From a virus, in IMG/VR virus record IMGVR_UViG_3300023174_000106, positions 1 through 64,000 of that record: a DNA stretch of 64,000 nucleotides; one strand, given 5' to 3'. The notes below the pieces were generated by a model. It saw only the letters and a list, made by a program, of their open reading frames with translations, had not been told where the DNA came from and did not search any database. The translations under genes were made by a program, and so were the position numbers. This document shows positions 6,499-54,921 of the stretch, in pieces (within the stretch, counting starts at the first letter, position 1; each line of letters starts with the position of its first letter).

Positions 6499-7368
6499 AT
6501 GGCAATCGACTTGTCTAAAATCAAGAGCCGTTTGAACTCTCTTTCAAACACAAATAATAAAACTCAAATTATTTGGAAACCAAAGCCTGGTAAGCAAACT
6601 ATTCGTATCGTACCTTATCGATATCAACCAGATTCACCGTTTATTGAACTCAAGTTTCATTACGGCATCAATAACAAGACGTATCTATCGCCTGATAGTT
6701 TTAATCGTCCTGATCCTATTGTCGAGTTTAGCAATAGACTCAAGAAGACTGGCTCCAAGGAAGATTGGCAGACCGGACGTAAGATGGAACCCAAGATGCG
6801 TACTTTCGCTCCAGTGATCGTTCGTGGTGAAGAACATGAAGGTGTCAAGTTCTGGGGATTCGGAAAGCAAGTATATCAAGAGATTCTATCGGTCATGGCT
6901 GATCCAGATTACGGTGATATTACTGATCTATTGTCAGGACGTGATATCGTGGTTGAGTTTCGTACTGCTGATGACAGTGGTAAGAGTTATCCAGAAACCT
7001 CAATTCGTGTAAAGCCTAACTCTACACCCGCTGTTGATCCTAAGGATACTAAGATGATTGAGGCAATCAAGAGTCAGCCAGATATTCTTGATTTGTTCCC
7101 AGAACCTAAGTATGATGAACTTAAGGAGGTTATGAATGCATGGCTAAATCCTGAGGAAGCTCAGTCTGAGACTGTCACCAACTCAGTTGTTGACGACGAG
7201 GATACTCAACCAGTCGCTGTAGCAGCTATTGCTCAGTCGGACGATGTGAGTACTAAGTCTCCAACTCCTAGTAAGCCCGCAAGTACTGGTAAGTCTCCAA
7301 GTGCTAGTTCAGCAAAGTCAAACACCGAAGACCTAACAAAGGCGTTTGATAATTTGTTCAGTAATTAA
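6499..7368 (+). CDS. gp32-like single-stranded DNA-binding protein
   Basis: 289 residues. The N-terminal basic region (MAIDLSKIKSRL) and core IIWKPKPGKQTIRIVPY, VKFWGFGKQVYQ and the following segment match the gp32 family of T4-like phages, which coats ssDNA during replication and recombination. T4 gp32 binds zinc, but this protein contains no cysteine, so that zinc site is absent. The C-terminus is a Ser/Thr/Pro-rich linker ending in an acidic/hydrophobic tail (LTKAFDNLF), equivalent to the partner-binding tail of gp32. A promoter and leader precede it and a terminator follows, so it can be expressed as a single-gene unit before uvsX. Confidence 0.88.
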   Translation: MAIDLSKIKSRLNSLSNTNNKTQIIWKPKPGKQTIRIVPYRYQPDSPFIELKFHYGINNKTYLSPDSFNRPDPIVEFSNRLKKTGSKEDWQTGRKMEPKMRTFAPVIVRGEEHEGVKFWGFGKQVYQEILSVMADPDYGDITDLLSGRDIVVEFRTADDSGKSYPETSIRVKPNSTPAVDPKDTKMIEAIKSQPDILDLFPEPKYDELKEVMNAWLNPEEAQSETVTNSVVDDEDTQPVAVAAIAQSDDVSTKSPTPSKPASTGKSPSASSAKSNTEDLTKAFDNLFSN

Positions 7369-7380
7369 TAAATCACAATA

Positions 7381-7416
7381 GGAGAGGTGATGGGCAAACT
7401 GTCACCTCTCCTTTTT
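7381..7416 (+). terminator. Rho-independent terminator after ssb
   Basis: A perfect stem GGAGAGGTGA (7381-7390) / TCACCTCTCC (7402-7411) with an 11-nt loop, then TTTTT. It lies 13 bases after the ssb stop and before uvsX. Confidence 0.9.
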
Positions 7417-7432
7417 AGTTTTGAAAAAAGTT

Positions 7433-8629
7433 ATGACAGAAGATACACAAAAAAAGAAAAAGAAATCAACTCATGTAACTCATGAAGTTGAATCACAACG
7501 AGATGAACTAGTTGAGTCTCTCGCTGATGTTCTAAACAAGGCCAATAAAGACGCAGGTAAGTGTGCGTTTTTTTTGGATCAAAAGGAAGATCCATCCACG
7601 ATAACGGATTGGATCAGCACAGGTTGCGACATATTGGATCTCGCAATTTCAAATCGTCCACATGCAGGTATTCCAGTTGGACGTATAACCGAAGTTACTG
7701 GACTTGAAGCATCGGGTAAGAGTTTGTTGGCAGCTCATTTGCTTGCGGAAACTCAAAAGAAGGGCGGACTTGCAGTGTTTATTGACACAGAACAATCAGT
7801 TTCACAAGACTTTTTGGCTGCAATCGGAGTTAACGTACCAAAGATGTTGTATGTTGATGCTCACACGGTAGAAGACATCTTTGAAAAGATTGAAACACTG
7901 ATTACTCATGTTCGCAAGTCAAATCGAGACCGTCTTGTTACAATCGTTGTTGATAGTGTTGCTGCGGCATCAACCAAGGGAGAATTGGAAGCAGATCATG
8001 GTAAGGATGGTTTTGCTACTGGTAAGGCAATTATCATTTCTAAGGCGATGCGTAAGATTAACGATATGATTGGTAGACAACGTATTGCGTTGATTTTCAC
8101 TAATCAGCTACGTGTAAATCTTCAGGCAGCAATGTTTGGAGACAAGTATACTACTAGTGGTGGTAAGGCTATTCAGTATCATGCTAGTGTTCGTCTTCGT
8201 TTGAAGGGTATGGGAGCACTGAAGGTTACTCAGAATGGTGAACCTGCCCATATTGGTGTCAAGACACGAGCAGTCGTTGTAAAGAATCGTATGGGTCCGC
8301 CTATGAGATTTGCTGACTTTAATATCTACTTTGATAGTGGCATTGATAATTATGGTAACTGGATTGAGGTGTTGAAGAAACACTCAATTATTACAGGAGC
8401 GAAATCACCATATTCTTATACTAAGAACAATGGTGAAATTGTTAAGATCGATACCAAGACGTTTGCTAAGGACGTAAAGGTTGATAACGAACTTCGTGAG
8501 GAGCTGTATCAAAAGATTGCTGATGTTACGATCATGAAGTATAAGTCACCTGACAGTGAAATTCGTGAGGATGTGGAAGTAGATTCTTCTGAAGATGCAG
8601 AAGAAGTTGGTGGAGAAGCTGAAGAATAA
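7433..8629 (+). CDS. uvsX: UvsX/RecA-like recombinase
   Basis: ATP-dependent strand-exchange protein for recombination-dependent replication and repair. Walker A GLEASGKS is at about residues 90-97, Walker B is in LVTIVVDSVAA, and RIALIFTNQLR, the DNA-binding loop region with TSGGKAIQYHASVRLRL follow. The C-terminus is acidic. An upstream in-frame TTG (7421) exists, but ATG 7433 is chosen; it sits in the context AAAAGTTATG seen at several genes here. At 398 residues it matches T4 UvsX (391). It is followed six bases later by the RNase H/exonuclease gene. Confidence 0.92.
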   Translation: MTEDTQKKKKKSTHVTHEVESQRDELVESLADVLNKANKDAGKCAFFLDQKEDPSTITDWISTGCDILDLAISNRPHAGIPVGRITEVTGLEASGKSLLAAHLLAETQKKGGLAVFIDTEQSVSQDFLAAIGVNVPKMLYVDAHTVEDIFEKIETLITHVRKSNRDRLVTIVVDSVAAASTKGELEADHGKDGFATGKAIIISKAMRKINDMIGRQRIALIFTNQLRVNLQAAMFGDKYTTSGGKAIQYHASVRLRLKGMGALKVTQNGEPAHIGVKTRAVVVKNRMGPPMRFADFNIYFDSGIDNYGNWIEVLKKHSIITGAKSPYSYTKNNGEIVKIDTKTFAKDVKVDNELREELYQKIADVTIMKYKSPDSEIREDVEVDSSEDAEEVGGEAEE

Positions 8630-8635
8630 TAATAT

Positions 8636-9700
8636 ATGAGTTTTAATCAAGACGAAAAAAAGAGATTGTTCTCTATCTTTGAAAATATTTCACAAGAAGA
8701 TAAGAATAAAGTATCTAATCGAAATCAAAATTCCGATATTCTCTTGATTGATGCGCTAAATACATTTATTCGCGCTTATTCGGTAATGCCATCCATGAAT
8801 GAAGATGGTCTTCATACGGGTGGCATTGCCGGATTTCTTAAAAGTATGGGATATGCAATTAAATTGCTTAACCCCACTCGATGTGTTGTTGTATTTGATG
8901 GTAATGGTGGGAGCATGAAACGTCGTAAGATTTATCCACAATACAAAGATAAACGACACACAAAAATTCGTCTTAACAGAGCATATTCAGAATTGTCTAC
9001 ATCTGACGTAGAAGAAAAGAATATGAAATCTCAACTGTTGAGGTCAGTTCATTATTTGGATTGTTTGCCAGTTTCAACTATGGCAATTGACCATATTGAA
9101 GCAGACGATACTATTGCTTATATTGCACAACAATACTGCAAGGACAGTAATGTTACTATAATGAGCGCTGACAAAGATTTTCTACAATTAGCCAGTGAAA
9201 AAGTCAAGATTTGGAGTCCTACTAAAAAGAAACTATATGGATGTGTTGAGATTTTAAATGAATACGGCGTTAGTTGTCAAAATTATATTTGGTATAGAGT
9301 TTTAGAAGGAGACGTATCCGATAATATCGACGGCATACAAGGCGCTGGCTTAAAAACGGTCATCAAGTGTTTTCCTTTTTTTGCTGAGAATCGACACGTA
9401 GAACTAGACGAGATTTATAATTACTGTGAAAATAATCAAAGTAAGTATAAATTGTATCGTACTATACTTGAAAACAAAGATGTTGTAGAACGTAACTATA
9501 CGTTGATGCAGTTGAAAGACACGGAGGTTCAAAGTTTCTCACAACTCCGTATTAATGAAATACTAGATAAGCCAACACAGAAGCTGGACCGAGTTGGTTT
9601 TTCTAAATTGGTCACTGAAGATAAAATGTGGAGTAACATTCCCAATTACCAAATATGGCTCAATGAATGTTTTGGTAAGTTGACCACGTTGGTGAGATAA
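8636..9700 (+). CDS. rnh: RNase H / 5'-3' exonuclease (FEN family)
   Basis: 354-residue flap-endonuclease-type nuclease expected to remove RNA primers and process lagging-strand fragments, as T4 RNase H does. Metal-binding acidic motifs are in order: LLIDALNTF, VVVFDGNGG, HIEADDTIAY, SADKDFLQL and GDVSDNIDG, followed by the helix-hairpin segment GIQGAGLKT. It follows uvsX closely and precedes the helicase gene in the same direction. It is slightly longer than T4 RNase H (305 aa) because of an extended C-terminus. Confidence 0.87.
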   Translation: MSFNQDEKKRLFSIFENISQEDKNKVSNRNQNSDILLIDALNTFIRAYSVMPSMNEDGLHTGGIAGFLKSMGYAIKLLNPTRCVVVFDGNGGSMKRRKIYPQYKDKRHTKIRLNRAYSELSTSDVEEKNMKSQLLRSVHYLDCLPVSTMAIDHIEADDTIAYIAQQYCKDSNVTIMSADKDFLQLASEKVKIWSPTKKKLYGCVEILNEYGVSCQNYIWYRVLEGDVSDNIDGIQGAGLKTVIKCFPFFAENRHVELDEIYNYCENNQSKYKLYRTILENKDVVERNYTLMQLKDTEVQSFSQLRINEILDKPTQKLDRVGFSKLVTEDKMWSNIPNYQIWLNECFGKLTTLVR

Positions 9701-9772
9701 TAAATCAATAAAATAAGTATACAAATAGGAAAATATAACCTACACTGGTTATGTAGTAAAATATTATTAATT

Positions 9773-11158
9773 ATGAGCGAAAATCACGTTATAGACAATT
9801 TGAAGAAGTTTGGATCTGAATTCCAAATCAAATGCATATCTGGAATTCTTAGCGATAAGACTTTCTTGGAGAGACTTTCTGATATCATTGATCCAACTTC
9901 ATTTGAATCAGATGCACATCAATGGATTGTAAAACAAACTGTATCGTACTTTATGCATTATAAAGATCTACCTACACTTAATGTATTTAAGATAAAGGTG
10001 GATGGAATTGAAAACAACGTATTGAAAGAAAGTGTTGTTTCACAACTTCGTAATGTGTATCAAAAAATCACAGATAGTGATTTAAAGTTTGTTAAAGAAC
10101 AGTATCTTGAATTTTGTAAGAGTCAAAAACTCAAGAGTGCAATTATGGACAGTGTTGGTTATCTGAAACAGGGTAATTATGAACAAGTCAAAGCATTGGT
10201 TGACAATGCAATGAAGGCTGGAATGGAACGTAATATTGGTCATGACTATATGACTGAAGTTGAAAAACGTATGAGTGTTATGGCTCGTAACACGGTAAAG
10301 ACCAACTGGAACGAGGTTGATACCATTATGGACGGTGGACTGGCGGCTGGTGAACTTGGAATTATCACGGCTTGTGCTGGTGCTGGAAAAAGTTGGGTTC
10401 TTGCCAAGATGGGAGCTGAGGCGATGAAACAAGGTAAGAACGTAGTTCATTTTACTCTTGAGTTGAATGAAAACTATGTGGGTCTTCGTTATGATAGTTG
10501 TTTTACAGGAATTGATTTCCAAAATATTCGTAACAATGTGGATATTGTCCGTAATAAGATTGAACAAGTGCCTGGCAAGTTGTTCATCAAGTATTTTCCA
10601 ATTAAGACTGTCAGTGCACATCATTTGAAGATGCATGTCGAACGTATTGCTATGTTGGGAAGTAAGATTGATATGATTGTCGTCGATTATGCTGATATTC
10701 TACGACCTTATCAGAGTGACCGTAATAGCAATAGTTACAGTGAAGCAGGTGGTATATATGAGGAACTTCGTAGTGTTGCGGGTGAATTGCAAGTACCTAT
10801 TTGGAGTGCTTCACAGAGTAATCGTGCTGCTATGGATGAAGATATTATTCAGGCAAACAATATTTCGGATTCATATCGTAAGATCATGACAGCTGACTTT
10901 GTTATGTCACTTAGTCGTAAAGTTACCGATAAAGTTGCTAATACTGCACGGTTTCATATTATTAAGAATCGTTTTGGTCCTGATGGAATGACATTTCCTG
11001 CCAGAATGAACGCTGGATGTGGTGATATTCAAATTTTTGCTGAAAATTCGAAGGATGGTATGGCTATTATTAACGAAATGGGAGACAGTGAGAATTTGGT
11101 TAAGAAGGCATTGTCAAACAAGTGGAATACTCACATGGGAGATGATGATGATGAATGA
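9773..11158 (+). CDS. Replicative DNA helicase (DnaB/gp41-like)
   Basis: 461 residues. An N-terminal helical domain (about 1-165) is followed by the RecA-fold motor: Walker A ACAGAGKS (200-207), ELNENYVGLRYDS, Walker B MIVVDYADIL, and SQSNRAA near the arginine-finger region. The length and layout match T4 gp41 (475 aa), the hexameric 5'-3' helicase. The C-terminus is acidic (DDDDE). The 72-base upstream gap contains only a 6-bp hairpin (9735-9752) and no Shine-Dalgarno. Confidence 0.9.
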   Translation: MSENHVIDNLKKFGSEFQIKCISGILSDKTFLERLSDIIDPTSFESDAHQWIVKQTVSYFMHYKDLPTLNVFKIKVDGIENNVLKESVVSQLRNVYQKITDSDLKFVKEQYLEFCKSQKLKSAIMDSVGYLKQGNYEQVKALVDNAMKAGMERNIGHDYMTEVEKRMSVMARNTVKTNWNEVDTIMDGGLAAGELGIITACAGAGKSWVLAKMGAEAMKQGKNVVHFTLELNENYVGLRYDSCFTGIDFQNIRNNVDIVRNKIEQVPGKLFIKYFPIKTVSAHHLKMHVERIAMLGSKIDMIVVDYADILRPYQSDRNSNSYSEAGGIYEELRSVAGELQVPIWSASQSNRAAMDEDIIQANNISDSYRKIMTADFVMSLSRKVTDKVANTARFHIIKNRFGPDGMTFPARMNAGCGDIQIFAENSKDGMAIINEMGDSENLVKKALSNKWNTHMGDDDDE

Positions 11159-11255
11159 TAGTATGTAACAGTCGGAAAACATTAAAAAAATTATAAAAAA
11201 TCAACATCAACATATAAAATTTAGAGTGAAAGTATCATAGTTATTTTTTGTCTAT

Positions 11256-13595
11256 ATGAAAAAAGAAATCTTTATTAAAAAAAGAAGCGGATTATTGGAA
11301 AAATTCAATGCTGATAAAATCAACAAGGTTTTACAATGGGCAACTGAAGGTATTAAGAATGTCTCGTTTGAAGAAGTCGCAATGAACGCACATTTGTCGT
11401 TCTTTGATGGAATGTCATCTGGTGCAATTCATGCAATGTTGATTGAAGCTGCCTCAAATTTGATTTCAATCGAAAAGCCAAATTATCAATTTGTGGCATC
11501 AAGGTTGATGAACTACCAACTTCGTAAAAAGGTGTGGGGAGGAAAGAATCCTCCTAAGTTGTATGATCTTTTAAAGACCAATATTGATAAGTTGGTGTAC
11601 GATGACGCTATCTTGGATTGGTATTCCAAAAAGGATTTTGACAAATTGGATGAATATTTGAAGCATGATCGTGACTTTGATTTTTCTTATGCTGGAATCA
11701 AACAGTTGTGTGACAAGTATCTGATTCAAAACCGTAGTACTAAGGAGATCTACGAGACTCCGCAATTCGCTTATATGCTAATTGCAATGACTTTCTTCAA
11801 GGACTATAGTGATAACCGTATTGAGTACGTCAAGAAGGCCTATAACTACTTCAGCAAACATAAGATCAACCTTCCAACTCCAATTATGGCAGGTGTTCGA
11901 TCAGTTATGAAGAGTTATGCTTCATGCAGTTTGTTTACCGTTGATGATACACTCAAAAGTATCTTCAGCAACAACACTGCTGTTGGATTTGCAACCGCTA
12001 GTCGTTATGGAATCGGACTCAATTTGAGTCGTTTGCGTGCTACAAACGCCCCAATCCGTAATGGTGAAGTGATTCATACCGGCCCAATTCCTTTTGCCAA
12101 GGCTTTTGAGTCTACTGTGAAGTGTTGTCACCAGAATGGTATTCGTGGCGGTAGTGCAACAGTCAATTTTGCATGGTTTCACTACGACATCATGGATATT
12201 TTGGTATTGAAGAACAACGCTGGAACGGATGATAACCGTGTTCGTAAGTTGGATTACTGTATTGGTCTTGATAAGTTGATCTTTGAACGCTTCTTGGAGA
12301 ACAAGGACGTGACATTGTTCAGTTATCATGAGTGTGCAAGTCTCTGGAACACATTTGGATATCCCGAATTTAAGGAGAAGTATGAAAAGGCTGAAGCTAA
12401 CAAGAACATCAAGTTCAAGAAGACGGTCAAAGCTCGTGAATTGATGGGTCTTCTTGCTAAGGAACGTATTGAAACCGGGCGTATTTACACAATGTTCGTG
12501 GATCATGCAAATGAACACGGTAGTTGGTTAGATCAAGTTGATACGAGCAATCTTTGCCTTGAGGTGAATCATCCTTTGATTCCTATTGAGGATGTGAATG
12601 ATCCTAATGGTGAGATTGGAGTGTGTATTTTGGCCGCTGTAAATTGGTTGGAGATCAAGGATGACGATGAAATGAAGAACGTTTGTGACGTTATCGTTCG
12701 TATGTTGGATTCTTTGATTGAACACCAGAACTATTTCGTTCCTGCTGCTGAAAACTTCGCTAAAAAGCGTCGTAGTCTTGGTGTTGGAGTGAGTAACTTG
12801 GCTGCTCTACTTGCTAGAGAGGGTTTGAAGTATTGGGATAAGGATGCTCCAAACTTTGTTGCCAAGTGGATGGAGAAGATGAGTTACTACTTGATTGAAG
12901 CGAGTGTTGAAATGGCTAAGGAACGTGGTGTATGTGAAAAGTTTGATCGTACTAAGTTCAGTAAAGGTATTTTGCCAATCGATACATACAAGAAGGACAT
13001 TAATGAATTCATTACTGAACCATTACACATGGATTGGGAAGGATTGCGTGTTAAGATTAAACAACATGGAATGCGTCATAGTACATTGACTGCTTGTATG
13101 CCTGTTGAATCCAGCAGTGTTATTCAGAGTAGTACCAATGGAATCGAACCTCCACGTAGTTTGATTAGTTACAAGGGCAGTAAGGCTAACATTTTGCCGG
13201 TAGTGGTACCTGGCATCGATAAGTATAGTGAAAATTATACGTTTGCGTTTGACATGCCGGATAATAGTGGGTACCTTAAGGTAGCAGCTGCTATTCAGAA
13301 GTTTACTGATATGAGCATCAGCACCAATACGTACTATGTTCCGTCACGTTATTCTCAAAACAAAGTTCCTGTTCAAGAGGTAATTAAGGATATTTTGTTG
13401 GCATACAAGTATGGTATCAAAAATCTGTATTATGCTAATACAGATGACGGTGACAAACAGACTGCAATGGAAGATAATACAGATGACGGTGACAAACAGA
13501 CTGCAATGGAAGATAATAAACAAAACGTTAAAGTTATTGAACCTAAAATTGAAGAAGAGTCAACTGGGTGTTCCAGTGGGGCTTGTGCTATGTAA
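11256..13595 (+). CDS. nrdA: Ribonucleoside-diphosphate reductase alpha chain (class Ia)
   Basis: Reduces NDPs to dNDPs. An N-terminal ATP-cone (about 1-90) precedes the catalytic barrel. Active-site cysteines are C224 (YASCSLF), C434 (SNLCLEV, with N and E around it) and C457 (GVCILAAVNW). The radical-transfer tyrosine pair is Y725-Y726 (NLYYANT), and the C-terminal CSSGAC shuttle pair matches E. coli CESGAC. The protein is therefore complete and looks active. A 39-bp exact tandem duplication near the 3' end (13437-13514) doubles a 13-residue acidic linker before the C-terminal cysteines. The beta subunit gene starts four bases after the stop. Confidence 0.95.
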   Translation: MKKEIFIKKRSGLLEKFNADKINKVLQWATEGIKNVSFEEVAMNAHLSFFDGMSSGAIHAMLIEAASNLISIEKPNYQFVASRLMNYQLRKKVWGGKNPPKLYDLLKTNIDKLVYDDAILDWYSKKDFDKLDEYLKHDRDFDFSYAGIKQLCDKYLIQNRSTKEIYETPQFAYMLIAMTFFKDYSDNRIEYVKKAYNYFSKHKINLPTPIMAGVRSVMKSYASCSLFTVDDTLKSIFSNNTAVGFATASRYGIGLNLSRLRATNAPIRNGEVIHTGPIPFAKAFESTVKCCHQNGIRGGSATVNFAWFHYDIMDILVLKNNAGTDDNRVRKLDYCIGLDKLIFERFLENKDVTLFSYHECASLWNTFGYPEFKEKYEKAEANKNIKFKKTVKARELMGLLAKERIETGRIYTMFVDHANEHGSWLDQVDTSNLCLEVNHPLIPIEDVNDPNGEIGVCILAAVNWLEIKDDDEMKNVCDVIVRMLDSLIEHQNYFVPAAENFAKKRRSLGVGVSNLAALLAREGLKYWDKDAPNFVAKWMEKMSYYLIEASVEMAKERGVCEKFDRTKFSKGILPIDTYKKDINEFITEPLHMDWEGLRVKIKQHGMRHSTLTACMPVESSSVIQSSTNGIEPPRSLISYKGSKANILPVVVPGIDKYSENYTFAFDMPDNSGYLKVAAAIQKFTDMSISTNTYYVPSRYSQNKVPVQEVIKDILLAYKYGIKNLYYANTDDGDKQTAMEDNTDDGDKQTAMEDNKQNVKVIEPKIEEESTGCSSGACAM
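13437..13514 (+). repeat. Exact 39-bp in-frame tandem duplication inside nrdA
   Basis: 13437-13475 and 13476-13514 are identical. Each encodes the 13 residues NTDDGDKQTAMED. The duplicate lengthens the flexible tail that carries the C-terminal redox cysteines and leaves the frame intact. Perfect identity suggests a recent slippage event or an assembly artefact. Confidence 0.95.
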
Positions 13596-13598
13596 AAT

Positions 13599-14657
13599 AT
13601 GAAAACTGTATTGAATAAAAAGAATATCGACCAACTGAGAAACCCAATGTTTTTCGGTGAAGATCTATCTCTTCAGAGATATGATAAAATTAAGTATCAA
13701 AAGTTCTATGAACTTTATGATCAACAACTCAACTTTTTTTGGCGTCCTCAAGAAGTGAACCTTGTAAAGGACATTAGTGACTACAAGGTGTTGTCTGATG
13801 AGGAACGGTTTGTGTTTGATAGCAATCTTAAGTTTCAGACCATGACCGACAGTATGTTGAGTCGTAGTATTCACGAATTGATGAAGCATTGTACAAATCC
13901 AGAACTGGAAATTTGTATGAATACTTGGTCGTTTTTTGAAACTATCCACAGTAACAGTTATACATACATTCTTAACAATGTTTATCCAGATGCTACCAAG
14001 TTCTTTGATAGTGTATTAGAAGACGAAGAAATTGTAAAACGCGCTAAAGCTATTAGTAAGAAGTATGACGAACTATTGGCACCATCAGATGACGTTAAAC
14101 AACAGTTGTTTGATGCTATTCTTGCTACGCAGATCACTGAGGGATTGATTTTCTATGTGAGTTTTGCTTGTAGTTTCTATTTTGGATTTCGTGGAAAGAT
14201 GGAGGGTAATAGTAAGATTATTAAGTTTATTAGCCGCGATGAAAATCTACACGTGGCTATTACCCAAAATATTATGAAGAACTGGATTAATAACCCAGAA
14301 GAAGGATTCCAAGATATTGTTAAGAAGAACGAAGACAAAATCTATGCTGCATATGAAATGGCAGTTAATGCAGAAAAAGACTGGGCTGATTATCTTTTCA
14401 GTAAAGGTAATCTAGTAGGTTTGACCAGTGAAAGTCTAAAACACTATATTGAATGGTTGGCAAACAATCGTTTATCTAGTATGGGATACAAAAAGATTTA
14501 CAGTAATGCTAAGGTAAATCCTCTATCTGGATGGTTGGATAGTTATTATGATAGTAAAAAGTTACAAGTTGCTCCTCAAGAAACAGAATTGAGTAGTTAT
14601 GTCAAAGGAGTGGATAATACCATCAATGATGATGCTTTTGATGGATTTAAACTCTAA
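13599..14657 (+). CDS. nrdB: Ribonucleoside-diphosphate reductase beta chain (class Ia)
   Basis: 352-residue di-iron radical subunit. Metal ligands align with E. coli NrdB: D84 (MTDS), E114 and H117 (ETIHSNSY, with the radical tyrosine Y121), E181 (TEGLIFY), E215 and H218 (RDENLHVA). The C-terminal tail that docks on NrdA is present. It is directly downstream of nrdA and followed by a strong terminator, giving a nrdAB unit. Confidence 0.95.
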   Translation: MKTVLNKKNIDQLRNPMFFGEDLSLQRYDKIKYQKFYELYDQQLNFFWRPQEVNLVKDISDYKVLSDEERFVFDSNLKFQTMTDSMLSRSIHELMKHCTNPELEICMNTWSFFETIHSNSYTYILNNVYPDATKFFDSVLEDEEIVKRAKAISKKYDELLAPSDDVKQQLFDAILATQITEGLIFYVSFACSFYFGFRGKMEGNSKIIKFISRDENLHVAITQNIMKNWINNPEEGFQDIVKKNEDKIYAAYEMAVNAEKDWADYLFSKGNLVGLTSESLKHYIEWLANNRLSSMGYKKIYSNAKVNPLSGWLDSYYDSKKLQVAPQETELSSYVKGVDNTINDDAFDGFKL

Positions 14658-15884: not shown

Positions 15885-16832
15885 ATGAAAAACACTAACA
15901 AGTCATTCAATCAAATCCTCGATTCCGCTCTTTCTAAGAAGCCGGATAATGTTATTATTTCGGACATCAAGTGGAAGTATCTCGTTCGATCCGTTCTTTA
16001 TGGAAAGAACGTGTTGATGGTTGGACCTACCGGATGTGGCAAGACGCTTGCTGCCCAAACAGTTGCCAAGACATTTAACCGTCCATTCTTTTACTTCAAC
16101 ATGGGGTCTACCCAAGATGCTCGTAGTGCTCTTATTGGTAATACTCACTTTGAAAAGGAAACGGGAACAATTTTCAGTGAATCTACTTTTGTAAAGGCAA
16201 TTCAAACTCCAAACGCTGTTATTCTGTTGGATGAAATTAGTCGTGCTCATCACGACGCTGCAAACATCATGATGACTGTACTTGATACTCTTCAACGATA
16301 TCTTCGATTGGATGAAAAGAAGGACAGTGAAGTTGTTAATGTTGCATCTGGTGTATGTTTCATTGGAACGGCTAATATTGGCAATCAATATACTGCTACC
16401 CGTGTTATGGACCGTGCTCTTATGGATCGATTCTCTGTTAAGATTGAAATGGACTTTCTTGACAAACAGTCCGAATTCACTTTGATGATCAATCGATTTG
16501 GAATTGATACAAATGATACGAATTTGGTTAATACGATTACTTCTATCTGTGATATTTCCGCTCATACCCGTGATCAATATCGCCAGGAAGATGGCAAGAT
16601 TACCAACTTTGTTTCAACTCGAGCGGTTTGTGAAATGGTTGAACTTGCCAAGGATGGATTTAGTCTTAAGGAAATTGCTGAAAGCGTAATCTATCCGGAG
16701 TTTTCTTCTGATGGTGGAGTTGATAGTGAACGTACTTACATCAAACAAGTTGTTCAAAAGTATGTTCCAAGTGAAGCTACAAATGATCCGTTGATGAACG
16801 ATCCGTTGAAGAAGAATCAACCTCCTTTCTAA
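15885..16832 (+). CDS. MoxR/CobS-type AAA+ ATPase
   Basis: 315 residues. Walker A GPTGCGKT (47-54), Walker B VILLDEISRAH (about 112-122) and sensor 1 GTANIG are followed by the RALMDRF arginine-finger region. Many T4-like phages of aquatic bacteria encode such a protein, usually named CobS after the cobaltochelatase subunit. The family more generally remodels protein partners together with a VWA-domain protein. That partner is next door (16880), each gene having its own near-identical promoter. Metal chelation, protein remodelling or host takeover cannot be told apart from sequence. Confidence 0.85.
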   Translation: MKNTNKSFNQILDSALSKKPDNVIISDIKWKYLVRSVLYGKNVLMVGPTGCGKTLAAQTVAKTFNRPFFYFNMGSTQDARSALIGNTHFEKETGTIFSESTFVKAIQTPNAVILLDEISRAHHDAANIMMTVLDTLQRYLRLDEKKDSEVVNVASGVCFIGTANIGNQYTATRVMDRALMDRFSVKIEMDFLDKQSEFTLMINRFGIDTNDTNLVNTITSICDISAHTRDQYRQEDGKITNFVSTRAVCEMVELAKDGFSLKEIAESVIYPEFSSDGGVDSERTYIKQVVQKYVPSEATNDPLMNDPLKKNQPPF

Positions 16833-16879: not shown

Positions 16880-18931
16880 ATGAAAAACAAATCTACTATT
16901 CACTCTGACTTTTGGTTGGATGAGTTTGATGACTTTGATGATTCCGTTACGATGGACGATACTACTCGTCTGATTCGTCTCAACATGAATCGTCGTGCTG
17001 TTTCAAATTTTGTTAGTATTCTCACCAGCAAGTCTATTCCTGTCGTTTTTAACGACGAAAACGTAAATGCAACCAATGGAAATATTGTTCATCTATCCGC
17101 TGATATTGAAAAGGCTGAAGACTTTGACAGTACGGTTGGACTTGCCCTACATGAGGGATCTCATATTTTGCTCAGTGATTTTCGATTGATTGCTGATATT
17201 TGGCAGAACGTTCCTCGTAGTCTATATAATATTGCTGAGACTAAAGGTTTCAGCAAAACGGAAGTTGCTTCATATATTAAGACTATATTGAATATTATTG
17301 AAGATAGGTATATTGATAACTTTGTTTACAATTCTGCTCCGGGATATCGTGGTTATTATTTGGCATTGTACGAAAAGTACTTTAATAGTCCACATGTTAA
17401 GACACTGTTGACTACTGATTTGTATCGGTCTACCACGGTTCAGTCGTATGAAGCGAGACTGATCAATCTAATGAATCCTCATACTGATTTGGATGCATTG
17501 CCTGCTTTTAGAAAGATTGCTGAGTGCATTGATGTTGCTAATATCAGCAGACTTAAGACTCCTAAGGACCGTTACGAAGTGGCGTTGCAAGTTTGTGAAA
17601 TGATTTATGAGAATGTTAGTATTGATGACCAACAAAAAGAGAATGAGTCTGCTCAATTGGAAATGAGTGGCAGTGGCAGCAGTAATGAATCTCAAGTTGT
17701 GGTTGTAGTCAATTCCGGATCAGATGATGGTTTTGGTGGAATTGAAACAGAAACAAATCCAGTTGGTACTGACAAGTCTGAAGAAAAGACAAAGAAAGAC
17801 AATGATAAGACGTGCATTTCCAAGAGCAAATTGAAAGCAATTGAGAAGGCTCTTAATAAACAACGTGACTTTTTGTCTGGTAAAATCAAGAAGAAGAAGG
17901 TTAACAGCCGTGAAAATTGTATTCTTGAAGACTTGGAGAAGGCAGGTGTAACTATTGTGAATGTAGGAGCCAATCTAGATGATACTACAGTTATTACTAA
18001 CGGTGTTGACTGTGTAGTCGTGAAGAATTTTACCAAGGAATTTGCTTTGTCAGATAGTTGTCCTTGTGTATTGGTTGATAGGGATAAAAATCCATTTCCA
18101 AAGAATGTTGATGCTGTAAATCGTGGCATTCAACTTGGTAACCTTTTGGGAAAACGTCTTAGTATTCGCAGTGAAATTAACACTACTAAGTATATGAGAA
18201 AGTCTACTGGTAAGATTGATCGTCGTGTACTTTCTGATTTGGGTATTGATAATGAGAATGTTTTTTATCGTATTGACACAGATCAGTATAAGAAAGGATT
18301 CATTCATATTTCAATGGATGCTAGTGGAAGTATGCAACACGCTAATAAGTGGACTAATACAATTACCAGCGTCACTGCTATTTGTAAGGCAGCATCCATG
18401 ATCAGTAACATTCGGGTTAGTGTTAGTATGAGAACTACTGGACAGAATGGTCTTCCATATATTGCTATGGTATATGATTCTGCCAAGGATTCGTTTAACA
18501 AGGTTCGTACTATTTTTCCGTATCTTTATTGTAACGGAAGTACCCCCGAAGGATTGTGTTATGAAGCCATTATGGATCTACTCAAGGAATGTGGCGAATA
18601 CGAAGACTGTTATTTCCTAAATTTTTCAGATGGCGAACCCACATATAGTTATAATAAACGTGGTAACTACATGTCTTATGGTCCCAAAAATGGAGGTATT
18701 CATACTCGTAAACAGGTGAATAAGATTCGTGGAAAGGGATATAAGGTGTTGTCATATTTTATTGCAGAAACAGCAATTAATAAAATAAAGGTTGACAGTG
18801 CTAGTTATGGACCGTATGTTTGTTTCAAAACAATGTATGGTGCTGATGCAAGATTTATTGATGTGACTAACATCATTAGTGTTGCTAAGACAATGAATGA
18901 AATGTTTTTGAGCAGTAATAGTAAAATTTAA
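16880..18931 (+). CDS. CobT-like protein with HExxH motif and C-terminal VWA domain
   Basis: 683 residues. The N-terminal part contains ALHEGSHILLSD (H91, E92, H95), a zinc-metalloprotease-like HExxH, with a further acidic helix NIIEDRYID that could supply a third ligand. A low-complexity acidic/Ser/Lys linker occupies about 245-320. The C-terminal VWA domain has a complete MIDAS: DASGS (480-484), TPEG, and SDGEP. This architecture (HExxH region, linker, VWA) is that of CobT-like partners of MoxR/CobS AAA+ ATPases, matching the neighbour at 15885. The pair probably forms one chaperone-like machine. The substrate is unknown. Confidence 0.82.
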   Translation: MKNKSTIHSDFWLDEFDDFDDSVTMDDTTRLIRLNMNRRAVSNFVSILTSKSIPVVFNDENVNATNGNIVHLSADIEKAEDFDSTVGLALHEGSHILLSDFRLIADIWQNVPRSLYNIAETKGFSKTEVASYIKTILNIIEDRYIDNFVYNSAPGYRGYYLALYEKYFNSPHVKTLLTTDLYRSTTVQSYEARLINLMNPHTDLDALPAFRKIAECIDVANISRLKTPKDRYEVALQVCEMIYENVSIDDQQKENESAQLEMSGSGSSNESQVVVVVNSGSDDGFGGIETETNPVGTDKSEEKTKKDNDKTCISKSKLKAIEKALNKQRDFLSGKIKKKKVNSRENCILEDLEKAGVTIVNVGANLDDTTVITNGVDCVVVKNFTKEFALSDSCPCVLVDRDKNPFPKNVDAVNRGIQLGNLLGKRLSIRSEINTTKYMRKSTGKIDRRVLSDLGIDNENVFYRIDTDQYKKGFIHISMDASGSMQHANKWTNTITSVTAICKAASMISNIRVSVSMRTTGQNGLPYIAMVYDSAKDSFNKVRTIFPYLYCNGSTPEGLCYEAIMDLLKECGEYEDCYFLNFSDGEPTYSYNKRGNYMSYGPKNGGIHTRKQVNKIRGKGYKVLSYFIAETAINKIKVDSASYGPYVCFKTMYGADARFIDVTNIISVAKTMNEMFLSSNSKI

Positions 18932-18960: not shown

Positions 18961-19371
18961 ATGAAAAAGACAAATCGACAGAATAAGACAGGACTCAACG
19001 TTAACTGGCCTAATGGTTTTTATACCATGGATATCAGTGAGTCTCACCCCAACATTACAAATCTCTGGGATCAGAACCGGCATTTTGCCGCTTTGATTAC
19101 GCTTCGGGTTCGTCTCACAAATGCACTTGAGAATAATCAAGTTGTTAAGTTGGGTACAATCAAGGGAAGTAAGGGTCGTCCCAAGTTGGTTTTTGCCAAC
19201 GTTCCTGTTTCTCAAGAAACTATTGATGCAGCTCGTACTGCAGGAGTTATCCTTGAGGATAACATTCCTAATGTAGTGAATGTTGTTAATGTTAAGCCAA
19301 CTGAGATTGAGACTACTGAGAGTGTTGAAACCACGGTTCATACAGAAAACGACGTTCCTCAGACTGTTTAA
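18961..19371 (+). CDS. Small unknown protein
   Basis: 136 residues, following the VWA gene by 29 bases. The leader contains GAAAGG about 12 bases before the ATG. The N-terminal 100 residues look folded (LWDQNRHFAALITLRVRLTNAL, then GTIKGSKGRPKLVFANVPVS) and the C-terminus is a Val/Thr/Glu-rich tail. No family is recognised. It is probably co-transcribed with the AAA+/VWA genes. Confidence 0.6.
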   Translation: MKKTNRQNKTGLNVNWPNGFYTMDISESHPNITNLWDQNRHFAALITLRVRLTNALENNQVVKLGTIKGSKGRPKLVFANVPVSQETIDAARTAGVILEDNIPNVVNVVNVKPTEIETTESVETTVHTENDVPQTV

Positions 19372-19428: not shown

Positions 19429-19710
19429 ATGAAGAGAAAACATTATTATTATTTTGAATTAGCTAAGGGAGATGGTTATCTTTTATATGATGGGGAGAAT
19501 CTAATAGAATTAGATTCTCCTCTTTCTATTGGCGATGAACGTGAAGTTAAGAATGCAGTAACTAAACTTCCTAAAGATAAAAACGGTAAAATGCCAATTG
19601 TGACTTATTCTGAACTAACAGATGTTAAGATATCATCATCTAAGATAGTGTTTGACTTTAAGCGTGGTACTACTATAGACTTTGAAGAACGAAATAAAAA
19701 GAAAACCTAA
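19429..19710 (+). CDS. Small unknown protein with an internal RNA hairpin
   Basis: 93 residues, charged, beginning MKRKHYYYFELAKGDG. No family is recognised. The coding sequence contains a perfect 12-bp inverted repeat (19494-19520) early in the gene. Its stop codon overlaps the start of the DUF4338 gene by one base, so the two are translated together. Confidence 0.55.
   Translation: MKRKHYYYFELAKGDGYLLYDGENLIELDSPLSIGDEREVKNAVTKLPKDKNGKMPIVTYSELTDVKISSSKIVFDFKRGTTIDFEERNKKKT
19494..19520 (+). other. Perfect 12-bp inverted repeat inside a coding sequence
   Basis: GGAGAATCTAAT (19494-19505) / ATTAGATTCTCC (19509-19520) with an AGA loop. The stem is too long and perfect to be expected by chance in a 280-bp gene. 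No uridine run follows, so it is not a clear terminator. Confidence 0.6.
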
Positions 19711-20885
19711 TGAATCAATTTTTCCAAATAGACGATTTTCCATATGACTTAGAAAAACAAAAGTTCATAGACAATATGAACTATTTGAAGTCTATGAGCG
19801 TAGAAGAAGCTACGTTTTATAAGAAATGGGAAGAGGTTAGAGAGTATCGTGATTTTGCGTCCCGATCAGATGATGTTAAGTACAAAATCTGGAAGCCAAC
19901 TGATATTTACAATGAAGAATTGACGTTGAAAGAATTGGATGAATTGAATCCCACTATGGTTCATGTTGAAACGGAACAACAAGAATTGGATTGGTTGATG
20001 TTGCGTGTATTTTGTCATACGATGGAGTTTAGTCAAACTCCGGGTAGGTTTTTGAAGTTTCTCATCACAGATGGTAACAGTGAGCGCACACGGTACCTAG
20101 GAGCGGTTTCTGTATCAAGTGACGTTATTACCATTACGGATCGTGACAAGTATATTGGATGGACTCCAAAGAACAAGTTGGAAGAGGGCAAATTGACGCA
20201 TAGTGCGATTGGAAGTTGTATTATGAGCACTCAACCGTTTGGATATAACTTTTTAGGTGGTAAGTTGGTTGCGTGTTTGGTCACATCATCTGTTGTTAGA
20301 GATGTTTGGAAGAAACTTTATAATCAAACCTTGGTTGGCATGACTACCACCAGTTTGTATGGTAGTTATAGTATGTATAATAGTTTGAAATGGTGGCACA
20401 AGTGTGGTACAAGCACTGGTAAAATACCTATTAAGCCAGACGACCATGTATATCAGATTTGGCACGATTGGATCAAAGAGAACAAATCCGAGGAATATAC
20501 CAAGAAAATGACACAAAAGGATGATGTATCTGGACCAGTAACAGGTGCTAAACAGCGAGTTATAAGCATGATATTTCAGGAATTGAATATTAAAACTCAA
20601 AATTATGTTCATGGATATGAACGTGGTGTTTACTACAGTAGTTTTTATGAAAATACCAAGGAATTCTTACAAAATAAGGTAAATGAAGACCAACTGGTGA
20701 TGAAAAAGTTGTTTTTTGATGATAAAAAGGCTATTTTGGACTGGTGGAAAGTAAAAGCCAAAGATCGATATTTGAAATTGAAGTCGGAAAATAACCTTAA
20801 GAAGGACATATTGTACTATAACTCTATAATGGATATGTCATATAACACAGCTAAGAGTAATTTTTTTCAAGAGGTTGGTAGATAA
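19710..20885 (+). CDS. DUF4338 (DruA-like) family protein
   Basis: 391 residues. The core (about residues 110-240) follows the layout of DUF4338 proteins: ERTRYLGAVSVS, then DRDKYIGW, a conserved Lys/Leu segment, a CIMSTQPFGYNFLGGKLVA block, and a later TTSLYGSYSMYN segment that fits the usual Phe/Thr-rich motif. In bacteria DUF4338 includes DruA of the Druantia antiphage system, and free-standing relatives occur in phages. The biochemical role is not established to my knowledge. It starts one base inside the preceding gene's stop. Confidence 0.6.
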   Translation: MNQFFQIDDFPYDLEKQKFIDNMNYLKSMSVEEATFYKKWEEVREYRDFASRSDDVKYKIWKPTDIYNEELTLKELDELNPTMVHVETEQQELDWLMLRVFCHTMEFSQTPGRFLKFLITDGNSERTRYLGAVSVSSDVITITDRDKYIGWTPKNKLEEGKLTHSAIGSCIMSTQPFGYNFLGGKLVACLVTSSVVRDVWKKLYNQTLVGMTTTSLYGSYSMYNSLKWWHKCGTSTGKIPIKPDDHVYQIWHDWIKENKSEEYTKKMTQKDDVSGPVTGAKQRVISMIFQELNIKTQNYVHGYERGVYYSSFYENTKEFLQNKVNEDQLVMKKLFFDDKKAILDWWKVKAKDRYLKLKSENNLKKDILYYNSIMDMSYNTAKSNFFQEVGR

Positions 20886-21773: not shown

Positions 21774-22721
21774 ATGCGTAATTTACGTTTCGGACTTTGT
21801 TGTATTTCCCTCAAACTTCAAGAACAGGGAATTCAATCATCTACCATGACTAAAACTCGTTTCCTTCAATTGGAACGAGTCAACGCCGAACGTAGTGTTG
21901 CGGATCGGACCCTAAACAACGTAGTTGTAACACGTAAAACCCTAGAGTATTGTGTGTCTCGTAAGTGGAATTACCGTATCAGTAGCGGTATGATGCCGTT
22001 GGAAACACTTCCAGAAGCAAATCTTTCAATTGAAACCACTTACAACTTTGACAAAATCAAACGTGAGTTTGAATTGTGTGCATCTGTAATCAAACAAAAT
22101 AACATTCGTTGTTCGACACATCCCGATCAATTTGTGGTTCCTGCTAGCGCAAATCCCAATGTAGTTCAAAAATCTGTTATTGAGTTGAAAGCTCATGGAA
22201 AAATGATGGATTATCTAGGACTTCCACAATCTTATGATGCACCTATCAATATTCATATGAATTGTTTCAAAGGTGCTGATATAAAAGACATCGCAAAGCG
22301 TTTTATTGACGTATACAACGATCTTCCTGTGAATGTGAAGAGTAGATTGGTTTTGGAAAACGAAGACAAGCCTAACAGTTGGAATGTGGAACAACTGTAT
22401 GAACATGTTTATCAACAGACTGGAATTCCCATTACTTACGACAATTTGCACTTTCGGTGTAATCCGGGTCGTCAAACTGCCGACGAAGCAATTTCTATGG
22501 CAAAAAACACATGGCAACAATATGTTCCGTTGTTTCATTTTAGTGATAACGACCCCACTGAAAAAAACGTGCGTGCTCATGGATATTATGTCACGTCATT
22601 TCCCGAAGAATTTCATAATGCCAATTGTCCGTTAGATTTGGAAATGGAGTTTAAAGCCAAAGATTACGCTATTGAAAAGTTTCAAATCGAATTCAATAAA
22701 AAAATGAATTTAGTTGACTAA
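21774..22721 (+). CDS. uvsE: UV damage endonuclease (UvdE/UvsE family)
   Basis: 315-residue TIM-barrel endonuclease expected to nick DNA 5' of UV photoproducts and so repair phage or host DNA. Family features in order: LRFGLCCISL at the N-terminus, STHPDQFVVP, NIHMNCFKG, LVLENEDK, GIPITYDNLHF and PLFHFSDN, which carry the metal-binding His, Glu and Asp residues. The length is typical. No Shine-Dalgarno is present and the promoter position suggests leaderless expression. The gene ends inside the next promoter. Confidence 0.9.
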   Translation: MRNLRFGLCCISLKLQEQGIQSSTMTKTRFLQLERVNAERSVADRTLNNVVVTRKTLEYCVSRKWNYRISSGMMPLETLPEANLSIETTYNFDKIKREFELCASVIKQNNIRCSTHPDQFVVPASANPNVVQKSVIELKAHGKMMDYLGLPQSYDAPINIHMNCFKGADIKDIAKRFIDVYNDLPVNVKSRLVLENEDKPNSWNVEQLYEHVYQQTGIPITYDNLHFRCNPGRQTADEAISMAKNTWQQYVPLFHFSDNDPTEKNVRAHGYYVTSFPEEFHNANCPLDLEMEFKAKDYAIEKFQIEFNKKMNLVD

Positions 22722-23197: not shown

Positions 23198-23507
23198 AAA
23201 GATTATAATTACACTATTAGTAATATTATCTTTGTTAACCTATAAGTTTCAATCACTGATACCACTGGGATTTATTCTGGTGGTATTTTATTTGACACAG
23301 GTCGATAAGATGTTACTGATCAATAAAAATATTATTGATGAAAATACAGTTCACACTAATAAGGTTATAACAACTTTACTAAACAATCAAAAAGTGTTAT
23401 TGTCAGATCTTAAACTGTTAAGAAACGAAATCAATAAAAACCATAAGAATGGCAACAAAAAAATCATCAGTAAAGAAGTCAAAAAAGGAATTGACAGACA
23501 ACAGTAA
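23190..23507 (+). CDS. Small membrane protein
   Basis: 105 residues from ATG 23190; an upstream TTG in the same frame is ignored. Residues 3-37 form one or two hydrophobic segments (KKIIITLLVILSLLTYKF, then LIPLGFILVVFYL). The rest is a helical, Lys/Asn-rich soluble tail that may form a coiled coil. It overlaps the gp62-like gene by 59 bases in another frame. Confidence 0.6.
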   Translation: MLKKIIITLLVILSLLTYKFQSLIPLGFILVVFYLTQVDKMLLINKNIIDENTVHTNKVITTLLNNQKVLLSDLKLLRNEINKNHKNGNKKIISKEVKKGIDRQQ

Positions 23508-23964
23508 TGTACCAAAAGCATTAGGTTTGTTTGATCATGTCAATCACATTCGTGGTGTACAAAACCCAAAATATTTTTCAACACTGAGTGATGCTGATAA
23601 AAAGAGTTTTACTCATGTGATGTTGATGAAGTTTTTGTCAATGGATCGTAATGCTCTTGATTCACTTTCTTATATTGGAAAGTATCAAGATAGTATGCCC
23701 TCTGAAAATTTTTATACTGTATTGACGGCTATAGTACCTCGTACCAATCAGTTTCATAAGTATATTAAAGCGGCTAAGAACAATTACGATGACGAGTTTT
23801 ACAAACTATTGGCGAGGTGGTATGAATGTTCATCATCAGAAGCAGAAGAATATTCTGAGATTCTTGGACAAACGGATGATGGAATCAAAGAAATGATCAA
23901 TATATGTAAAGCATATGGTTTGACGGATGGTGAAGTAGAAAAGTTAATGACTAATGAAAAATAA
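23449..23964 (+). CDS. Clamp loader small subunit (gp62-like)
   Basis: 171 residues. The core matches the pattern of T4 gp62, the non-ATPase subunit that works with gp44 to load the gp45 clamp: a helix with FTHVMLMKFLS, then MPSENFYTVLTAIVPRTNQFHKYIK (in gp62 the MAAVPRGKRYGKW region), then LLARWYECSSSEAEEYSEIL (gp62 LLAKRY...NYKSIL). The N-terminal 20 residues are Lys/Ser-rich. The gp44- and gp45-like genes are 30 kb away (53204-54921), unlike T4, where 45-44-62 are adjacent. Assignment is by eye. Confidence 0.65.
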   Translation: MATKKSSVKKSKKELTDNSNVPKALGLFDHVNHIRGVQNPKYFSTLSDADKKSFTHVMLMKFLSMDRNALDSLSYIGKYQDSMPSENFYTVLTAIVPRTNQFHKYIKAAKNNYDDEFYKLLARWYECSSSEAEEYSEILGQTDDGIKEMINICKAYGLTDGEVEKLMTNEK

Positions 23965-24619
23965 ACTTTATATTGGAATATCAGGAGTAGCAAGATCTGG
24001 AAAAAATCTGTTTTGCGACATTTCTAAGAAAATTATATCTGAAAAATATGGATTGACATGTAGTTCATATGCACTTGCATTTTCTTTAAAGAACGATTGT
24101 AAAGAGTTTGTCAAAGATAAATTGGGATTGGATGTATTTACAGAAGAGACTGAAGAAAAAAAGATCTTTAGAGAAATGCTTGTTTGGTATGGTGATGTCA
24201 AACGTAAACAATCACATGGACGGTATTGGACTGAAAAGCTTCAATCTGAAATGGAAAAGGATGATTCTGATGTTATTTTTATAACTGACATACGTTATAA
24301 CTTTTATCCTAAAGATGAGGTATATTGGATCAACAATGATTTGAACGGTAAGTTGATTCACATATCAAAATACACATATGGTTTCCCTACTGATGGTAGA
24401 CGTATTCGTGGTGATATTGCTAATACAAATCAAAAGATTTGGGTAGAACCTGTCAATGATCATGAACGATGGAACGATCCGAAGGTTAAGGCTGAAGCTG
24501 ATTATGTTGTCGAATGGCCTCATGTAAAATCAGAAGGTAAAACTTATCAAGATATAATTAATGATGATCAATTAAATAAGATAATATCACCTATATATGA
24601 ACGTATATTTTCCGTATGA
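23954..24619 (+). CDS. Deoxynucleoside monophosphate kinase (T4 gp1-like)
   Basis: 221-residue P-loop kinase. Walker A GVARSGKN (11-18), a LID/substrate segment with GDVKRKQSHGRYW, and DVIFITDIRYNF follow the pattern of phage dNMP kinases that supply dNDPs for replication. It overlaps the gp62-like gene by 11 bases and the sugar gene rfbA by ATGA, linking the nucleotide genes to the sugar pathway in one operon. Confidence 0.75.
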   Translation: MKNKLYIGISGVARSGKNLFCDISKKIISEKYGLTCSSYALAFSLKNDCKEFVKDKLGLDVFTEETEEKKIFREMLVWYGDVKRKQSHGRYWTEKLQSEMEKDDSDVIFITDIRYNFYPKDEVYWINNDLNGKLIHISKYTYGFPTDGRRIRGDIANTNQKIWVEPVNDHERWNDPKVKAEADYVVEWPHVKSEGKTYQDIINDDQLNKIISPIYERIFSV

Positions 24620-53952: not shown

Positions 53953-54921
53953 ATGGATGCCTTTTTTGAAGAGGTGAGTCATACCGACGATAAGAAGGTT
54001 CATAGTTTGTGGGTTGAAAAGTATCGACCCACAATTATTGAAGATTATATCGGAAATGAAAACATCATAACCACAATTAAGAGTTATATTGACCAGCAGA
54101 ACATTCCACATTTGATGTTGTATGGCGGTGCTGGTACTGGAAAGACAACGTTGGCTAAACTGTTGACTAAACAGATCAACTGTGATGTATTGTATATCAA
54201 CGCATCTGATGAAAATAAGGTTGAGAATGTTCGAACCAAGATTAAGAGTTTTGCATCATGTGTGGGTATCAAACCGCTGAAGATTATTATTCTGGACGAG
54301 TGTGATTATATGTCACCAGAGGCACAAGCGGCTCTTCGTAACCTTATGGAGACGTTTAGTATGTCTACGAGGTTTATTCTGACATGTAACTATCATGAGA
54401 AGATGATTCTTCCCATTGTATCACGTTGTATGACATTTGAGATTGCTCCGATGACTAAGGTTTCGGTTGCGGTACATTTGACTAAGATTCTTAAGTCAGA
54501 AAATGTTGAATATCAGAATGATGATTTGGCGTATATAGTAAACACATATTATCCGGATATTCGTAAGATTATCAATGTGGCACAACAATCTACTTTTGAA
54601 GGTAAGTTGAAGGTTAATAAGGAGTCTTCGTTGAAGACTGACACACATCAAAAGTTGGTGGACATGATTAAGAATGGTATTGGTAAGCCAAATGCATTTA
54701 ATGATATTCGACAATTTGTTGTGGATCAGCGTATCAAAGTATATGATGATTATTTCTCTATGCTGTATCAGAAGGTTGATGATTATGCTAATGGTAAGCA
54801 GGCAATAGCTACGATTATTATCTCTGAGTATATGTATCAATGTAGTTTGTTGATTCCTCCATTGAAAGAAATTGCTTTGATGGCATGTATTAGTAAACTT
54901 TTAACAGATTTGAGAAAATGA
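53953..54921 (+). CDS. Clamp loader ATPase subunit (gp44/RFC-like)
   Basis: 322 residues, the size of T4 gp44 (319). KYRPTIIEDYIGNE at the N-terminus, Walker A GGAGTGKT (58-65), Walker B LDECDYM (about 112-118), and the SRC motif in VSRCMTFE. It loads the clamp from the gene five bases upstream. The small partner subunit (gp62-like) is encoded at 23449. It overlaps the next small gene by ATGA. Confidence 0.92.
   Translation: MDAFFEEVSHTDDKKVHSLWVEKYRPTIIEDYIGNENIITTIKSYIDQQNIPHLMLYGGAGTGKTTLAKLLTKQINCDVLYINASDENKVENVRTKIKSFASCVGIKPLKIIILDECDYMSPEAQAALRNLMETFSMSTRFILTCNYHEKMILPIVSRCMTFEIAPMTKVSVAVHLTKILKSENVEYQNDDLAYIVNTYYPDIRKIINVAQQSTFEGKLKVNKESSLKTDTHQKLVDMIKNGIGKPNAFNDIRQFVVDQRIKVYDDYFSMLYQKVDDYANGKQAIATIIISEYMYQCSLLIPPLKEIALMACISKLLTDLRK

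Follow-up and report, generated by a model that had tools for sequence, protein, structure and literature searches.

A DruA-like protein of predicted GNAT fold in a phage replication operon, a candidate DNA-modifying counterpart of the Dam methyltransferase

The window, by which we mean the whole stretch of 64,000 bases analysed here, belongs to a virus record of 95,820 bases (G000). Inside a block of T4-type replication genes it carries an open reading frame on the plus strand that opens with ATG, encodes 391 amino acids and lies exactly where a reading of the sequence alone had placed it, at 19710-20885; the phage setting which that reading gave to the gene holds as well. All genes of the block lie on the plus strand and follow the order listed below as far as the kinase, with a gene for a 204-aa protein between the DruA-like gene and UvdE.

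6499..14657, plus strand: replication and nucleotide block upstream of DruA, comprising gp32-like, RecA/UvsX, 5'-3' exonuclease, DnaB helicase, NrdA and NrdB genes
15885..16832, plus strand: AAA+ ATPase, CobS/MoxR-like (AAA_5, E 4.4e-19)
16880..18931, plus strand: 683-aa protein, VWA-like by the sequence-only reading and a MIDAS-like motif (no family match)
18961..19371, plus strand: 136-aa conserved protein (family consensus)
19429..19710, plus strand: 93-aa protein, whose stop codon overlaps the DruA start (TAATG)
19710..20885, plus strand: DruA-like (DUF4338) protein, 391 aa, predicted GNAT fold (PF14236, AlphaFold2, VIA-align)
21774..22721, plus strand: UvdE UV-damage endonuclease (PF03851, E 6.7e-42)
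23449..23964, plus strand: gp62-like clamp-loader small subunit (phrog_225, E 1e-10)
23954..24619, plus strand: deoxynucleoside monophosphate kinase-like protein (phrog_139, E 4.7e-13)
46745..49072, plus strand: T4-type DNA polymerase, gp43-like (phrog_262, E 6.4e-169)
53953..54921, plus strand: gp44-like clamp loader (phrog_168, E 1.7e-74)

In this phage the gp44-like gene does not adjoin DruA but lies 33 kb away. The neighbours named earlier, an AAA+/VWA pair and two small genes (136 and 93 aa), do stand directly upstream. The 683-aa product has no Pfam match, so its 'VWA' label goes back to the sequence-only reading and to a MIDAS-like motif, which we take to mark it as VWA-like.

The assignment to DUF4338, the family of DruA, is borne out by the HMM search that had been proposed as its check: PF14236 matches residues 77-321 at E 8.1e-23, scoring 81.4 bits against a Pfam gathering score of 27. 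The protein is also matched by the PADLOC profile for DruA (E 1e-20) and by PHROG 19197 (E 1.2e-30), a family labelled as of unknown function; it found no match in NCBIfam or, in a sequence search, among solved structures. Comparison of the window gene with its relatives gave omega values of 0.03-0.09 in five of six pairs, the sixth being saturated; these values are rough, since four of the five usable pairs have a dS above 1. The gene is under purifying selection and is not a chance reading frame.

Neighbouring genes were counted at the 65 of 110 IMG/VR loci that extend at least 5.5 kb upstream and at least 5 kb downstream. Near the relatives of DruA stand gp62 and the 136-aa gene (55/65 loci each), the 683-aa gene (53/65), the AAA+ gene (52/65), the dNMP kinase (48/65), UvdE (38/65) and the 93-aa gene (11/65). 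A scan on the AAA+ family returned 80 loci, 67 of them with at least 6 kb downstream; DruA is present at 50 of these 67 and absent from 17, and is thus near-constant in the window's operon yet dispensable. At 16 of the 17 a VWA-like gene lies upstream, in a different order, with no DruA within 9 kb, and one locus, L501, has the operon order of the window without DruA. The 16 reordered loci and L501 speak against a single obligate system made up of the AAA+/VWA pair and DruA, an idea that was therefore rejected. At the place in L501 where DruA would be expected (L501:12612-12908) lies a 98-aa open reading frame on the minus strand. The 136-aa protein (18961-19371) has the conserved motifs WP, FT, ITLRVR and KGRP, and it matched none of nine small DruA neighbours in cyanophages and pelagiphages.

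The gene has relatives in aquatic phages. A tblastn search of 50,697 phage records detected it in 31, several of them duplicate deposits: 25 Synechococcus phages, three Pelagibacter phage records, two SAG records of marine viruses and one cyanophage. The cyanophage proteins (of S-PRM1 and others) are homologous to the window protein but just about 23-27% identical to it. In IMG/VR, 54 of 55 candidate stretches found with the window protein were confirmed (52 loci), as were 278 of 289 with a cyanophage form of DruA as query and at least 566 of at least 599 candidates with the family alignment. One scan of a species-genome collection, on one peptide pattern, returned 11 relatives, all in MAGs; in the tree described below most of these group with phage sequences and may derive from stray contigs of phage origin. 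In two phyla, 16 of 349 and 24 of 240 genomes contain PF14236, counts of the domain rather than of Druantia systems. Short contigs of a Thermoplasmata MAG (L221 and L222) carry two different DruA-like genes in tandem.

An AlphaFold2 model of the 391-aa protein, built from 62 sequences, has a pLDDT of 91.3 and a pTM of 0.86. Foldseek alone gave weak matches in the PDB, the best being MYST acetyltransferases at E 1.1e-3, and VIA-align provided a second look. Over 993 chains, VIA-align placed Mom of phage Mu (8bv8) first, at Z 9.9 and rmsd 3.9 with 183 of 222 residues aligned, followed by KKT23 (Z 9.3), SpeG (Z 9.2) and other GNATs. As rows within 1 Z count as ties, the fold to be read from this comparison is that of a GNAT, with Mom one among the closest. 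A model of a cyanophage form that shares about 27% identity with the window protein has a lower pLDDT (74.1) and again has GNATs on top, Mom being tied at Z 8.8, so that the top rows for both models are GNATs at Z 8-10. By its predicted structure the window protein is a member of the GNAT fold. Models of giant-virus proteins in BFVD also resemble the phage DruA model in Foldseek, at E 4.6e-19 to 9.8e-10: A0A3G4ZXG3, A0A5K0UAJ3 and A0A3G4ZRA1, of Faunusvirus (E 4.6e-19), Yasminevirus and Dasosvirus.

Three short segments of the protein hold conserved residues.

20142..20162, plus strand: RD-x3-GW motif, residues 145-151 (R145 in 68/68 phage and 6/6 Druantia-type rows)
20229..20267, plus strand: TQPFGYNFLGGKL, residues 174-186, loop between strand 4 and helix 3 (conservation and model secondary structure)
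20346..20378, plus strand: TTSLYGSYSMY, residues 213-223, after strand 5 and near the presumed active site (residues in common with E. coli DruA)

Across the 68 phage proteins, conservation reaches 97% or more at 26 positions, most of which lie in the cofactor and catalytic region of the GNAT fold. Eighteen positions are common to at least 94% of the 68 phage rows and to five of the six Druantia rows, among them R145, P176, LGGKL 182-186, T213, S215, G218, S221, Y223 and G233; all of these, and G112, are present in both the phage protein and the DruA of the type I Druantia system (druABCDE) of E. coli. Within the loop of residues 174-186, P176 and K185 occur in 68/68 phage and 6/6 Druantia-type rows, G183 in 68/68 and 5/6, and G184 in 67/68 and 6/6. 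The loop lies at what we take to be the place where GNATs bind the pyrophosphate of CoA, and it would probably bind CoA here. The canonical GNAT loop motif is Q/R-x-x-G-x-G/A; the window protein has N-x-x-G-G-K at the right place, differing from the full motif.

Profile comparison ties the family to Mom through a chain of intermediates. The phage family (68 rows) matches Druantia-type DruA (six rows: E. coli, three plasmid-borne and two others) at a probability of 99.8 and E 2.3e-29; Druantia-type DruA matches transposon-type DUF4338 (27 rows, named for a transposase fusion found in the three members scanned) at 96.9 and E 1.4e-10; and the transposon type matches Mom (nine proteins) at 92.6 and E 4.4e-7 over 184 columns, where 60 column-shuffled Mom alignments gave at most 0.8 and a reversed alignment 0.5. 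Two of the three transposase-fused members scanned also match PF25680, the Mom family, one at 8e-6 and 26.1 bits, just under the cut-off of 27.1, and the other at 0.0056. Set directly against Mom in hhalign, the phage family and Druantia DruA reach 0.2-0.4%, no better than shuffles, and a Pfam scan of the window protein up to E 1 gave no match to PF25680. Aligned by eye, S124 of Mom falls on the invariant Gly183 and D149 on Thr214, positions occupied by Gly and Thr in the phage rows and in most of the Druantia-type rows, so that Mom's own chemistry is unlikely to have been kept; the transposon-type clade retains NLAS and ETFVD, again by eye, and a PDB title calls the S124A mutant of Mom inactive. 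The phage protein, at 391 aa, is also longer than Mom (241 aa). In a DUF4338 tree of 87 rows and 152 columns, with two long-branched MAG rows, the transposon type (100/100) and the six Druantia-type rows (100/99) form clades apart from the phage rows (85/92); the sequence-only reading had asked for such a phylogeny, and phage and Druantia members separate in it. It is the transposon-type clade that resembles Mom, and in three of its members (L276, L262 and L265) DUF4338 is N-terminal to three kinds of transposase: DDE_Tnp_1 with an associated domain, DDE_5 and a Tn5 type.

Among cyanophages, ten of 11 records read have DruA between the clamp-loader genes, arranged gp45-gp44-DruA-gp62-regA and in some cases interrupted by small genes; in the eleventh (S-B68) it lies beside gp46/47. 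It likewise follows a clamp-loader gene in S-PRM1, Sf-FS3 and SynMITS9220M01, and in two pelagiphages it is found near gp46/47 and CobS. In Syn33, which is without DruA there, dam lies in the interval between gp44 and gp62. Relatives of Dam occur in 421 phage records, of which 413 bear the name Synechococcus, Cyanophage or Prochlorococcus. Two IMG/VR scans with the gp44 proteins of Syn33 and S-SM2, one of them a DruA phage, yielded 160 loci from the best 80 matches to each query. After 44 without gp44 or gp62 were left out, the 116 complete slots among these best matches held Dam in 92 cases, DruA in 21, neither in three and both in none. Searching through DruA gave 80 loci; the 58 of these with complete slots all have DruA and none has Dam. 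Dam and DruA occurred together at none of the 239 distinct loci, 66 of which had incomplete slots and were left out of the slot counts. The mutual exclusion of the two genes has a Fisher p of 3e-20 when kinship is ignored. On a gp44 tree of 105 rows, made by a quick method with 27 of its 102 inner branches starred, at least 14 switches between Dam and DruA are required, at least six of them on starred branches. The cyanophage relatives of DruA have thus been swapped many times with an adenine methyltransferase.

In whole records, the D12 methyltransferase domain PF02086 is absent from 15 of 16 DruA phages and present in all six Dam controls; the exception, S-SCSM2R, has both DruA and Dam, the latter at another place. 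No D12 methyltransferase was found in the window's record, which may be a fragment. Other genes, too, occupy the gp44-gp62 slot, and the exchange is a finding about cyanophages, not about the clade of the window. Frequent replacement in one slot, with the two never there together, is best explained by jobs that are either redundant or incompatible. Dam has a Rossmann-like methyltransferase fold and uses SAM, and is unrelated to the GNATs in fold and cofactor; what the exchange shows is a shared locus together with incompatibility or redundancy, not shared chemistry.

We consider it somewhat better than an even bet (a probability of about 0.56) that the DruA-like protein is an enzyme of GNAT fold which, during replication, modifies the DNA of the phage itself and stands in for Dam. 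A donor of the acyl-CoA type would be bound at the LGGKL loop and adenine would be the first guess for the modified base. The modification would do the job of Dam methylation in the sister phages, masking sites from host nucleases, or alternatively might tell new from old DNA strands. That a DNA base should be the natural substrate is suggested by the distant link to Mom, and the trading of places with a DNA-methylating enzyme probably points to an enzyme that marks DNA rather than to a weapon or a decoy. Among the roles offered by the sequence-only reading, that of a DNA-handling enzyme is the one favoured by the GNAT site, the replication operon and the alternation with Dam, from which we infer a modifying activity. 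Since the exchange with Dam is one-for-one and natural, phages with DruA in place of Dam are predicted to carry a different base modification. Against a DNA modifier counts the failure of the phage and Druantia profiles to match Mom directly, and against a replacement of Dam in the window's own clade counts L501, which lacks DruA and has no Dam-type gene within its 18.9-kb stretch.

GNATs, moreover, mostly modify proteins and small molecules, which also counts against a DNA target. An enzyme that acylates a protein of the replisome, of the sliding-clamp system or of the host RNA polymerase, and thereby adjusts replication or transcription, would agree with the GNAT fold of both models and with the gp44-DruA-gp62 arrangement inside the cyanophage clamp-loader operon, and a phage GNAT acetylating host RNA polymerase is described in PMC7824862. 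We nevertheless think it unlikely, as it leaves unexplained both the one-for-one exchange with a DNA methyltransferase and the link to transposases and, via them, to Mom. A lower probability still attaches to a catalytically dead GNAT that binds DNA or senses its structure in replication or repair. The Mom-type Ser and Asp are indeed not kept (by eye), and the gene adjoins UvdE at 38 of 65 loci and gp46/47 in pelagiphages and S-B68, but a plain DNA binder would not need the strongly conserved positions of the cofactor and catalytic region.

The competition and decoy readings proposed from the sequence found no support. Type I Druantia DruA is of the same Pfam family, but the phage protein stands alone, in a clade of its own and in a replication operon. 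Druantia DruAs are its nearest cellular relatives, which would suit a factor of competition between phages, modifying or otherwise acting on the DNA of rivals or of the host so that self is marked and others are attacked. Such a weapon lacks an attack partner, however: DruE was not found in seven of eight records searched (G000, G602, G603 and four phage records), in the eighth (G604) the sole match scored 16 bits and lay in a frame interrupted by five stops, and PADLOC found no match for nine further window proteins. With the place in the replication operon and the cyanophage alternation with Dam also against it, we regard this role as very improbable. Hardest of all to credit is a role as a decoy, or as a dominant-negative copy, that would jam the type I Druantia of the host: homology to DruA does extend over about 240-270 columns, but the clade is separate from the Druantia DruAs, and the conserved residues, common with E. 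coli DruA, lie in a GNAT cofactor and catalytic region. The hosts of cultured carriers are Synechococcus and Pelagibacter.

Parts of this picture are already known. Going by the available portions of the texts, the DruA-likeness has been published for six Synechococcus phages (PMC12774648) and DUF4338 has been stated to be a GNAT and to occur in DndF fusions (PMC10853773), where it is a fused domain within a defence protein, in contrast to the free-standing phage protein. The portion of PMC12774648 available makes no mention of an exchange with Dam, and that of a transcriptome paper (PMC12753301) treats other pelagiphages; the word DruA was not found in the accessible text of a 2026 preprint on Druantia III or of a preprint on YprA. 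One database deposit names its cyanophage copy 'methylcarbamoylase mom', and among open papers none was found that joins DruA with Mom. The open literature covered, some of it in part, assigns no activity to DruA. Extracts of a review (PMC12904381) state, in a table, that Druantia recognises DNA modification and, in the text, that Druad1 promotes phage DNA methylation and thereby evades type I Druantia; these statements would fit DruA as the writer of a mark, short of demonstrating it.

A wider and distinctly more tentative proposal, which we hold to be possible but doubtful, is that DUF4338 proteins, E. coli DruA included, are GNATs related to Mom that modify DNA bases: in phages as a free-standing enzyme that takes the place of Dam at the replication fork with a mark other than methyl, in transposons as a fusion with the transposase, and in Druantia as the writer of a mark that separates self from foreign. 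If true, these proposals would add a new class to the DNA hypermodifications of marine phages, help to explain the resistance of such phages to host nucleases and give an enzymatic role to the first gene of type I Druantia.

The palindromes AGCT, GGCC and TGCA have observed/expected ratios of 0.29, 0.27 and 0.62 at 58 cyanophage Dam loci and of 0.96, 1.08 and 0.99 at 40 cyanophage DruA loci, a markedly weaker avoidance at the latter. The difference was not significant when 13 genomes were compared with six (p 0.087) or in kin-controlled pairs (median p 0.125), and S-B68, S-SRM01 and S-CREM1 run opposite to the trend; as the words were picked post hoc from 16 and the tests are non-significant, the result is not used as support. 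Further along the window, at 60794-62617, lies a gene for a 607-aa protein that matches phrog_7245, labelled 'anti-restriction protein', at E 3.2e-21.
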